A stretch of 64,000 bases of DNA from Zhihengliuella sp. ISTPL4 (GTDB lineage: Bacteria; Actinomycetota; Actinomycetes; Actinomycetales; Microbacteriaceae), in assembly GCF_002848265.1 (NCBI RefSeq), contig NZ_CP025422.1:682001-746000 (forward strand), read 5' to 3'. The notes beneath the pieces are model-generated. The model ran no database searches and had not been told where the DNA came from. It saw only the letters and a program-made list of their open reading frames with translations. Both the position numbers and the translations under genes were made by a program. This document shows, piece by piece, positions 23,298 to 26,152 of the stretch (its first letter is position 1; each line of letters opens with the position of its first letter).

Positions 23298-24314
23298 TCA
23301 GAAGCCGATGACCTCGCGATAGCGCGGCTTGTGGCCGGTGCGGATGCCGGTGACGCTGGGCTTGTTCTCGTAGACACCCGCACCCCAGTTGCCCTCGACG
23401 AGTACGGGGCCGTCCGGGGTCACGACGACGTCCCAGCCGACGTACTGCACCTGCGGCACGACGCGGGCGACCTGATCGATGAACGCCCGCACCTCGTCCA
23501 TGTAGGGCAGCTGGAAGTCGGCGATGCGGAAGCCCGAGTCCGGGTGGGTCTCGTGAACGTGACCGTGCGAGTCGTAGCCCGCCCCCACGGCGTGCCCGTT
23601 CTCATCGAGCATCGTGTAGAAGCCGCCGAACGTCATCTGGTCGCTCACCGCGCCGCGGCCGAACTTCTGTGCCATCGCGAGGATGTGCGCCTTCTCGCCG
23701 TCGAAGAACGCCGTGATGCGGGTGGTGTTCACGGTTCCGGGGCAGACCGCCGCCAGATCGTCGTGCTGGCGGATGACCTCTTCGATCAGCAGCTCGCCGC
23801 GATCGAGGAGACCGCGGTGGAACTCGGTCCAGTCCGTGATGTCGGCCGCGTGGTACCGGTGCACGCCGGTCCCGGCTTGGCCGACCGGCTCCTTCGTGAC
23901 GATGGTGCCGAGGCGCTCCGTGAGGGCGCGGACCTCGTCCGCGTTCCCCTCCTCGACCACCATCCACTCACGGTGCAGGTGCGCGGAGAACTTGCGGTTG
24001 AACTCGATCTTGTCCTGGAAGATCCAGCGGAAGTCGGGGTGGTCGTACTTCTGCGAGAGCTGGTTGGAGACCGGGTGCGTCATGTACGTCTCGCGCTCGG
24101 CACGGTTCAGCATCGCGAAGTCGTAGTCGATGTAGTCCTGGAAGCCGACGTTGTGACGGGCCGCCGACCAGAGCATGTCGGCGACGATCGTGGGCACGGG
24201 CCGGTGATGCTGGGCCGAGGCCTCCTTGGCCCGTTCGAACACCGAACCGACGTCGATGCGGCGGGCACGGCCGAGGAGGTAGCGGATGCGGGGCGCGAGA
24301 GAAAGACGAGACAT
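23298..24314 (-). CDS. Sugar-transfer-associated ATP-grasp protein (ATPgrasp_ST)
   Basis: A 338-residue protein matching the 'sugar-transfer associated ATP-grasp' family, predicted to form an amide or ester bond on a cell-surface or small-molecule substrate using ATP. Motifs: an N-terminal helical region, nucleotide-binding VTKEPVGQAGTGV near 140, IEEVIRQHD near 178, and the Mg-ligand segment VLVEGNWGAGV near residue 310, where Glu and Asn would bind metal. GGAG lies 5 bp before ATG 24314. It is divergent from two alanine-racemase-fold genes (85 bp between starts), suggesting a D-amino acid or related product is its substrate. Substrate unknown. Confidence 0.8.
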   Translation of the reverse strand: MSRLSLAPRIRYLLGRARRIDVGSVFERAKEASAQHHRPVPTIVADMLWSAARHNVGFQDYIDYDFAMLNRAERETYMTHPVSNQLSQKYDHPDFRWIFQDKIEFNRKFSAHLHREWMVVEEGNADEVRALTERLGTIVTKEPVGQAGTGVHRYHAADITDWTEFHRGLLDRGELLIEEVIRQHDDLAAVCPGTVNTTRITAFFDGEKAHILAMAQKFGRGAVSDQMTFGGFYTMLDENGHAVGAGYDSHGHVHETHPDSGFRIADFQLPYMDEVRAFIDQVARVVPQVQYVGWDVVVTPDGPVLVEGNWGAGVYENKPSVTGIRTGHKPRYREVIGF

Positions 24315-24385
24315 GGAGCTCCGGGTCTAGGGATCGACGTCCCAGTCTACGCGGGGAGCCCCCAGGCTCCTGGGAGTGCGGAAGC

Positions 24386-24398
24386 TAGGCTGGAGGAC
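24386..24398 (+). promoter_or_regulatory. Leaderless -10 (TAGGCT) of the first racemase-like gene
   Basis: TAGGCT at 24386-24391, 7 bp, then GTG at 24399. It sets the start of that short gene. Confidence 0.55.
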
Positions 24399-25103
24399 GT
24401 GTGTGACACGAGTTCGAGTGCGCTTCCGCAAGCGATGATCTCGCGTTCGGCCCTCGCCGCCGGCGCGTCCGCGGCGATCCGGGCGGGAGGGACGACGGCC
24501 GACCTCCGGCGCGATGCCTGGGGTCACGGTCTGCTCGCCGTCGCCCATGCGGTCACCGCCGCCGGCGCCGCAGAGGTGCTCGTGGACTCCCCGGGCGAGG
24601 TCGAGGCGCTGCGCCTCGAGGGCATCCGTGCCACCACGACCGGCGAACCGGACACCGATCCCGCGCTGCTCTACGGTCTGCCGAGCGCGGCGGGTGCCTC
24701 GGCCACCCCTCCGGTCATGAGACTCGTCGGTCGGGTGATGTCCACCAAGCGTCTGCGAGCGGGGGAGGCCGTCTCCTACGGCTATACCTTCCGGGCCGCA
24801 ACGGACACCGTCGTCGCGCTCGTCACGGGCGGGTACGCCCAGGGCATCGTCCGCGCCCTCGGCAATCACGCCGACGTCGAGGTGGACGGCGCGCTTCGCC
24901 CGATCATCGGGCGTGTCGCCATGGACGTGTGCGTCATCGATCTGCAGGGCGGCGCGGCGGACGTGGGGGATCCGGTGACCTACTTCGGTGGGACCGGGCC
25001 CGCTTCCGACGCGATCGGCCACTGGGCCGCGGTCACCGGGATGACGCCGGCGGAGCTCGTCGCCGTTCCCGGCGCGCACGCCGTGCGCGGATGGGAGGCA
25101 TGA
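24399..25103 (+). CDS. Partial alanine-racemase-fold protein: C-terminal domain intact, barrel mostly lost
   Basis: A 234-residue relative of alanine racemase. Residues 36-44 (RRDAWGHG) correspond to the K-x-N-A-Y-G-H-G loop that holds the PLP lysine, but Arg37 replaces the lysine. Only about 60 residues of the eight-stranded barrel remain. The C-terminal beta domain (105-234) is well kept: VSYGYT with the position of the catalytic tyrosine (about 128), GGYAQG near 144 and GRVAMD near 171-176. It therefore cannot be a complete racemase alone. GTG 24399 is set by a TAGGCT hexamer. It overlaps or abuts the second racemase-like gene, which keeps what this one lacks. Confidence 0.75.
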   Translation: MCDTSSSALPQAMISRSALAAGASAAIRAGGTTADLRRDAWGHGLLAVAHAVTAAGAAEVLVDSPGEVEALRLEGIRATTTGEPDTDPALLYGLPSAAGASATPPVMRLVGRVMSTKRLRAGEAVSYGYTFRAATDTVVALVTGGYAQGIVRALGNHADVEVDGALRPIIGRVAMDVCVIDLQGGAADVGDPVTYFGGTGPASDAIGHWAAVTGMTPAELVAVPGAHAVRGWEA

Positions 25104-25111
25104 TGGGAGGC
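25091..25111 (+). repeat. Tandem ATGGGAGGC repeat carrying two ribosome sites
   Basis: ATGGGAGGC at 25091-25099 and 25103-25111. Each copy puts GGGAGG 4 bp before an ATG (25103 and 25115), so the second racemase-like gene has two well-spaced starts, one overlapping the upstream stop. Confidence 0.6.
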
Positions 25112-25114
25112 CCG

Positions 25115-26152
25115 ATGCGACCTGAGCTGCGACTGGACAGCGCCGTGTTCCGCGCCAACGTCGCGGCGGTGCGGGACCGGCTGGGCGAATCCACGCTGAT
25201 GCTGGTCCTGAAGGACGACGCGTACGGTCACGGTCTCCGCTGGGCGGTCGAGACCGCGCGGGAGGCGGGGGTCACCTCATTCGGCAGCTATGACGTGCGC
25301 GGAGGCCTCGACGTCCGACGTATCGTCGGGGCGGCGGCTTCCGTGTTCGCCTGGGCGACCTCGACCGACGAGGAGATCGACGAGGCGCTCCTGCAGGACA
25401 TCGAGCTCGGGGTCGGGACGGTCGAGTACCTGCGGCGCATCATCGCGCGGGCGGAGGTCCTCGGCGTGCGCGCGCGGATTCACCTGAAGATCGACACCGG
25501 ACTGCACCGCAACGGCGTGCGCCCGGAGGATTGGCCGGCGGCGGTGGCGGAAGCGAGGGCGGCCGAGAGCGCGGGCACCCTCGCGCTCGTGGGAGTGTGG
25601 AGCCACATCGCGGAGGCGAGCGACGCCGAGGACGACGAGGCCCAGTCCGTATTCCTCGATGCCGTGCAGCACACCGGCCTGTCCGGAGCTGTGCCGGAGG
25701 CCCTGCACCTCACGGCGTCGGCGGCATCCTGGTGGCGTCCGGAGCTGCGCGGCACGGTGTCGCGGATCGGGGCGTTCTGCTACGGCATCCGTTCGGCGGA
25801 CGGCCCGGATCTCGACGGCGTGCAGCCGGCGGCACGCCTCGTCGCCCCGGTCGTCCGGGTCGACGGCGACGCCGCGGTCGTCGCCGTCGGCAGTCTCGAC
25901 GGCCTCCCCTCGACACTCGCCGGAATGGCAGTCGGTACTCCGGCCGGCCCCCGCGTGGCCGCCGAGGTCGGTCTGGCGACGACGACGGTCGCCGGCTGGC
26001 CGGGCATGGCCGTCGGTGACGAGGTGACGATCTTCGGCCCCGGCGTACAGGGGGAGGACACAGCAACGACCCTCGCCGAGCGGATCGACACGGTGGGCGA
26101 GGAGATCCTCACCCGACTCGGTCCGCGGATTCGGCGGAGGGTCGTGGAGTGA
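25115..26152 (+). CDS. Alanine-racemase-fold protein keeping the PLP-lysine barrel but lacking the catalytic tyrosine motif
   Basis: A 345-residue fold-III PLP protein. The PLP lysine is at about residue 33 in VLKDDAYGHG; the barrel continues with HLKIDTGLHRNG near 127, a WSHIAEA segment near 165 and the phosphate-binding RIGAFCYGI near 217. In the C-terminal domain the SYG tyrosine motif is missing and the usual GRxxMDQ reads EVGLATT, though the closing VGDEVTIFG strand is kept. Active racemases form dimers in which the tyrosine comes from the partner, and the preceding gene supplies that motif. ATG 25115 (GGGAGG 4 bp upstream) is preferred; 25100 and 25103 are alternatives. Confidence 0.78.
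   Translation: MRPELRLDSAVFRANVAAVRDRLGESTLMLVLKDDAYGHGLRWAVETAREAGVTSFGSYDVRGGLDVRRIVGAAASVFAWATSTDEEIDEALLQDIELGVGTVEYLRRIIARAEVLGVRARIHLKIDTGLHRNGVRPEDWPAAVAEARAAESAGTLALVGVWSHIAEASDAEDDEAQSVFLDAVQHTGLSGAVPEALHLTASAASWWRPELRGTVSRIGAFCYGIRSADGPDLDGVQPAARLVAPVVRVDGDAAVVAVGSLDGLPSTLAGMAVGTPAGPRVAAEVGLATTTVAGWPGMAVGDEVTIFGPGVQGEDTATTLAERIDTVGEEILTRLGPRIRRRVVE

Follow-up and report, generated by a model that had tools for sequence, protein, structure and literature searches.

Can two adjacent genes, each lacking one half of the alanine racemase active site, together encode a working enzyme? The question is raised by a pair of genes, here called A and B, in a stretch of 64,000 nucleotides from the Microbacteriaceae genome titled Zhihengliuella sp. 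ISTPL4 (assembly GCF_002848265.1, contig NZ_CP025422.1, positions 682,001 to 746,000), hereafter the window, from whose first nucleotide all coordinates are counted. A preliminary description of the window had proposed that the two products form an obligate heterodimer with one working active site, or else a non-racemase that binds pyridoxal 5'-phosphate (PLP). Here we argue that A and B probably encode an obligate heterodimeric, PLP-dependent enzyme that racemises a basic diamino acid and in this organism makes D-ornithine for type B peptidoglycan, a reading to which we assign a probability of roughly 60%.

Complementary halves of a racemase active site

Gene A (24399..25103, plus strand, GTG start) encodes a 234-residue protein with a short N-terminal remnant of the racemase barrel and a complete C-terminal domain. 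It matches the Pfam domain Ala_racemase_C at 3e-28, and its match to Ala_racemase_N (0.011) falls under the cut-off. Gene B (25115..26152, plus strand, ATG start) begins 11 bases after A and encodes 345 residues that comprise a complete barrel, matching Ala_racemase_N over the full span of the domain at 1.1e-40, as well as a degenerate Ala_racemase_C domain at 2.1e-9. Both proteins have the fold of the alanine racemase superfamily (type III, with an N-terminal barrel and a C-terminal domain), and at 96.1 bits for A and 106.7 bits for B neither reaches the 168-bit cut-off of TIGR00492, the equivalog model of alanine racemase (Alr). Alignment in the numbering of the Geobacillus enzyme places Arg37 of A (24507..24509) where the PLP lysine, Lys39, would stand, and identifies Tyr127 (24777..24779) and Met175-Asp176 (24921..24926) of A as the equivalents of the catalytic Tyr265' and of Met312'-Asp313'. 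The PLP lysine is found in B as Lys33 (25211..25213), together with Glu167 (25613..25615) at position 169, the first of a pair of acidic residues, and Glu329 (26099..26101), which takes the place of the specificity tyrosine, Tyr354. Both open reading frames and the division of residues between them thus agree with the preliminary description, which had given A the C-terminal domain, the tyrosine, the Met-Asp motif, an arginine for the lysine and a barrel stub, and had given B a lysine barrel free of the tyrosine and Met-Asp; it had not mentioned the degenerate C-terminal domain of B.

The ordinary alanine racemase active site is built from both subunits of the dimer, with Tyr265 supplied by the partner subunit (PMC3485190), and therefore only a site formed between B and A would be complete. 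In such a complex, B would give the PLP-binding barrel and Lys33, and A would give the second base, Tyr127, and the Met175-Asp176 loop across the dimer face. One of the two sites of the ordinary homodimer would survive.

This division of residues recurs in relatives of the pair. The best 80 of 239 B relatives in named genomes, nearly all titled Microbacterium, were taken as a set of named loci, and a second set of 35 split pairs consists of 33 from 24 other genera and two from Microbacterium genomes (L093 and L243); these further loci began as a set of 35, 34 split and one tandem, to which more were added later. Residue counts exclude rows L244 and L245 and the A and B of the window itself. 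Among the named loci, a lysine occupies the PLP-lysine site in 80/80 B proteins and in 0/79 A proteins, where the site holds Arg (66), Glu (7), Ala (3), Asp (1), Gln (1) or Met (1). Conversely, the catalytic tyrosine and the Met-Asp motif are each present in 79/79 A and 0/80 B proteins. Tyr43, Arg136 and His166 of B are each found in all 80 loci, and Arg219 in 79. The 35 further pairs follow the same pattern, with the lysine in every B, the tyrosine in every A and a lysine in no A (one gap); at their Met-Asp site the methionine is invariant, followed by Asp in 31 and Asn in 4. No split A or B chain carries the PLP lysine and the catalytic tyrosine together; an alignment with both residues in both proteins was a result that the preliminary description would have taken as a refutation. 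Judged from these sequences, the complementary pattern in the named loci exceeds chance.

A directly precedes B in 79 of the 80 named loci, the exception being L025, where the contig ends before A. With start codons picked by script, the two reading frames share 4 bases in 69 of these 79 loci. Across seven pairs, dN/dS ratios range from 0.14 to 0.38 for A and from 0.14 to 0.26 for B, showing that both genes are under purifying selection. A frameshift that divided one racemase gene is excluded by the gene order, with the C-terminal domain encoded first in the same A-B order in 79/80 loci, and by the separate stop codon of each gene.

The two genes also occur together across genomes. An A profile at E ≤ 1e-45 marks 299 of 366 Microbacterium genomes and misses 67, and a B profile was applied to 40 genomes from each of these two groups. 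All 40 genomes with A have a B match at E ≤ 3e-80, although B is in pieces in G521 and G534. Of the 40 genomes that the A profile misses, 37 show only matches at the level of an ordinary alanine racemase (about 5e-51 to 1e-66), two have none (G498, which is 59% complete, and G505), and one, G570, has a strong match. In G570 the C-terminal domain of A is fused ahead of B in a single open frame of 541 residues (locus L242, minus strand), with the racemase C-domain at residues 52-135 and the N-domain at residues 199-439, a permuted single-chain order. The PLP lysine and catalytic tyrosine share this frame, which scores 227.9 bits against TIGR00492 and so exceeds the cut-off. The fusion is evidence, at the level of sequence, that the A and B parts act as one unit. 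Setting it apart, B is present in 40/40 genomes with A and in 0/39 without A. The genome-neighbourhood check proposed in the preliminary description finds the two short proteins side by side and occurring together. The complementary catalytic residues, the co-occurrence, the natural fusion and the intermediates described below strongly support the predicted heterodimer; we infer that A and B bind each other and racemise an amino acid.

Acid pair of B, and probable origin and spread of the two genes

The second distinguishing feature of B is its pair of acids. Position 169 is Glu in 80/80 named B proteins and Asp (22) or Glu (13) in the 35 further ones; position 354 is Glu in 78 of the 80 (two gaps) and Asp (21), Glu (13) or a gap (1) in the 35. 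Across the 119 proteins readable at both sites, which include split B proteins, the fusion and the acidic tandem copies introduced below and leave uncounted three B proteins with a gap, 96 are Glu/Glu, 23 are Asp/Asp and none is mixed. The inner-layer Tyr354 that limits the Alr pocket to alanine is absent from every readable B, which has Glu or Asp there. The lysine and arginine racemases Lyr and Bar also do without Tyr354, having Thr391 and Ala393, respectively (PMC3485190); B has an acid rather than a small residue of that kind. The acid pair would fit a cationic side chain and suggests a cationic amino acid as substrate: taking the place of the alanine-specificity tyrosine, it would bind the ammonium group on the side chain of a diamino acid. 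An ordinary Alr-level match accompanies the pair in 40/40 genomes and is found in 37/39 genomes without it, so D-alanine supply does not depend on the pair. The window genome itself has two further full-length racemases. The second of these (L002, G000:C1:2360050-2360688) has a histidine at position 354 and is a candidate for a non-alanine substrate.

Several genomes preserve forms that could represent steps towards the split pair. At L207 and L102, A retains a barrel that lacks the lysine. At six other loci (L206 and L246-L250, from genera g32, g5 and g12), a tandem arrangement of two full-length racemases is found, and both copies have every catalytic residue; in all six the upstream copy is ordinary, with Asn169 and Tyr354, and the downstream copy is Glu/Glu or Asp/Asp. 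Trees were built by quick searches with SH-aLRT support. Barrel trees were made without L093, the long rows alr2 and L204 were removed before the approximately unbiased (AU) test, and L197, L242, L244 and L245 were kept out of every tree. On the barrel tree without the two long rows, the 47 acid-pair proteins (41 B and 6 tandem copies) form one clade with a support of 99, within which Glu/Glu tandem copies lie beside Glu/Glu B rows and Asp/Asp tandem copies lie among Asp/Asp B rows. Forcing the B rows alone into one clade is rejected (p-AU 0.0003), and thus splitting would have occurred at least twice. On the C-domain tree (130 columns), the B rows stand together (97) and the upstream tandem copies fall among the A rows (96). 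A single origin of the acid pocket followed by at least two splits seems the simplest reading, in which a full-length racemase would have gained the acid pair at positions 169 and 354 and then separated into A and B.

Twenty-four genera other than Microbacterium have split pairs of this build. The flanks of the 33 pairs from these genera contain gyrB or sigA in 30 cases and DUF7455 in the remaining three, and the pair and gyrB point in opposite directions in 19/19 Asp/Asp loci and in the same direction in 8/10 Glu/Glu loci. No gyrB-locus neighbours were seen in the flanks read for the six tandem loci. Short proteins that score as A, identified by length and profile only, are recorded under names from Leifsonia, Diaminobutyricibacter, Diaminobutyricimonas, Agreia, Clavibacter, Lacisediminihabitans, Salinibacterium, Labedella, Glaciihabitans, Parafrigoribacterium and Homoserinimonas; a table in PMC7033078 gives diaminobutyrate (Dab), D-ornithine, lysine or lysine/ornithine for five of these genera. 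The listed matches in 184 genomes from other families included no split A, and the shortest open frame among them is 353 residues; these frames run from stop to stop, and a short gene could hide inside one. Two matches that align with nearly the whole A profile, in G692 and G695, were considered as split forms and proved to be ordinary full-length racemases with the lysine, the tyrosine and Tyr354.

Some genomes depart from the general distribution. The Microbacterium genome G608 (L243) has an Asp/Asp-type pair closest to those of genus g74, possibly through replacement by transfer. Genus g50 (G049, G119, G174, G223 and G265) has an A-profile match at E ≤ 1e-20 in 0/5 genomes, compared with 291/299 for the family overall. 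Locus L081, titled Planococcus sp. APC 4015, is of the Microbacterium type, and the genome is probably misnamed.

Proposed substrate and cell-wall role, and rival explanations

Group B peptidoglycan is reported in Microbacteriaceae (PMC10978784), and the walls of Microbacterium contain D-ornithine, L-lysine or Dab depending on the species (PMC10757982). The same source reports D-ornithine in M. sufflavum and M. galbinum and a shared pattern in close reference type strains. Loci L011 and L034 come from strains of these two species, the only listed species that could be checked against reported D-ornithine. Two other descriptions give ornithine with no stated hand (PMC9998209; PMC11319209). The product in Microbacterium would likely be D-ornithine, known from its type B peptidoglycan, and other members of the family would make the corresponding D-diamino acid; both the diamino-acid substrate and the wall role are what we infer from the sequences and these reports. 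As a proxy for the residue at position 3, we considered the MurE motif, which is DNPA in the lysine-adding MurE of Staphylococcus aureus (PMC3829189). The MurE survey covered 80 of 86 listed matches, from 37 genomes with A and 37 without. A DNPA-type MurE occurs in 9/37 genomes lacking A and in 0/37 having it, one of the latter carrying DNPY. QHPR is confined to seven lacking genomes of one clade, and HHPR is common to most lacking genomes and the others. On the MurE tree the presence or absence of A requires seven changes, so the pair has been gained or lost on several occasions. In 30 MurE loci from the further genera, the motif does not track Glu/Glu versus Asp/Asp. Three genomes lacking A (G430, G500 and G375) have additional MurE-like ligases that carry a DDD motif, at L108, L109, L110 and L113, two of them adjacent in G375.

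We also put forward, tentatively and with the odds slightly against it, a broader scenario for Microbacteriaceae in which a racemase with a diacidic pocket broke down, on at least two independent occasions, into an obligate pair of complementary, half-dead subunits that makes the D-ornithine, D-diaminobutyrate or D-lysine of type B bridges, with repeated loss of the pair explaining the L-lysine walls of some Microbacterium.

Several observations weigh against these proposals. L-ornithine is the form given in one description of a Microbacterium (PMC10978784). MurE provides a weak signal, with a Fisher p of 0.014 for 9/37 versus 1/37 when DNPY is counted and ancestry is ignored, and 28 of the 37 lacking genomes have no DNPA-type MurE. 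Glu/Glu and Asp/Asp show no simple match with reported wall types: L203 is Glu/Glu and is matched to Lacisediminihabitans profunda, reported with Dab and type B1alpha. The idea that the two acid pairs encode the length of the diamino acid is unsupported for this reason. Glu329 of B pairs with Tyr361 in the 1vfh alignment, a phosphate-contact tyrosine according to Table 2 of PMC3485190, and an acid at this phosphate-side position could have another role. Finally, on the C-domain tree, in contrast to the barrel tree, all B rows group together and the acidic tandem copies fall on the side of the ordinary racemases. This grouping of B could result from fast decay or from gene conversion, and conversion between tandem copies could give a false appearance of repeated splitting.

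A heterodimeric racemase of the same build might instead act on alanine, serine or glutamate, or make a free D-amino acid that serves as a signal, rather than supply a wall bridge. In fold and catalytic residues the pair matches alanine racemase, and the other full-length racemases of the window genome, one with His354, are consistent with several racemase roles. Alanine itself is disfavoured by the ordinary racemase that accompanies the pair and by the acid that replaces the alanine-fitting tyrosine in every readable B, and we consider another substrate unlikely. Fold type III also covers non-racemases, and the loss of the phosphate-contact tyrosine from B would suit a heterodimeric PLP protein with no racemase activity, such as a PLP carrier, a decarboxylase-like enzyme or a regulator. 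Against this, both racemase bases are invariant, the lysine in B and the tyrosine in A, and a PLP carrier would have no need of a tyrosine and Met-Asp provided in trans; a non-racemase function is in our view distinctly improbable. That the genes are relics, either two duplicates in decay that do not function together or an artefact of assembly or frameshift, might be thought from the few genomes in which B is in pieces (L055, L060, G521 and G534). The low dN/dS over both genes, the same order in 79 loci, the conserved residues and the spread across the family leave this explanation next to no probability.

The preliminary description had further suggested that the divergent neighbouring gene (23298..24314, minus strand), which it took for a sugar-transfer ATP-grasp enzyme, may use the product of the pair in a cell-envelope or peptide conjugate. 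The gene does match ATPgrasp_ST (PF14397, 3.8e-31), it lies outside the two-gene system, and a tblastn match to it is found in 61 of the 80 named loci. The ATP-grasp gene is, however, present in 33/40 genomes with A and in 34/40 scored without A. There is no association, and a shared pathway is very improbable. Seven loci (L042, L045, L046, L049, L053, L056 and L084) have two divergent ATP-grasp paralogues next to the pair, with identities of about 44-48% and 37-39% to the gene of the window. An F420_ligase-like gene (PF01996; 22507-23202 in the window) lies between the sigma gene and the pair and is present in 59/80 loci.

Relation to known enzymes

In the open-access library searched we found no report of a heterodimeric or split racemase and no enzyme for the D-diamino acid of type B peptidoglycan. 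If correct, the proposed heterodimer of A and B would be a racemase that relies on two inactive paralogues and that apparently arose more than once, with the steps visible in living genomes as tandem copies, a dead copy that keeps its barrel, the split pair and refusion. It would show where the D-diamino acid of type B peptidoglycan, a wall type on which taxonomy has long relied, comes from, offer a gene marker for D-ornithine versus L-lysine walls, and provide a natural case of a racemase with one site per dimer.

The pair shares with Alr (TIGR00492; M. tuberculosis 1XFC and Geobacillus 1SFT) the fold, the PLP-lysine barrel with its C-terminal domain, and an active site formed between subunits (PMC3485190). 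Alr is a homodimer with a lysine and a tyrosine in each chain and two sites, whereas A and B are paralogues that each lack one half, with Glu or Asp in place of Tyr354. The lysine racemase Lyr and the broad-specificity racemase Bar (4DZA and 4DYJ) likewise have the Alr fold with Tyr354 replaced, opening the pocket to lysine and arginine (PMC3485190). They carry both catalytic residues on one chain and have Thr391 or Ala393, unlike the A/B pair with its divided residues and the acid in B. The VanT serine racemases have an Alr-type catalytic domain in common with the pair. VanT is altered in its pocket at the Tyr354 position, and is a single-chain, membrane-linked protein with a role in resistance. 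Another parallel is the deoxyhypusine synthase of trypanosomatids, in which duplicates became an impaired and a dead subunit; activity rises 3000-fold on formation of the heterotetramer, and neither gene is dispensable (PMC3663545). That enzyme is a different one from another kingdom, and one of its paralogues keeps limited activity. In Trypanosoma, S-adenosylmethionine decarboxylase (AdoMetDC) also requires a dead paralogue, prozyme, for activity (PMC5201418). Prozyme acts by relief of autoinhibition and the catalytic residues are not shared between the subunits, unlike those of A and B. Inactive paralogues that complement each other are thus known from deoxyhypusine synthase, and what would be new here is the chemistry of alanine racemase in an obligate two-gene form.

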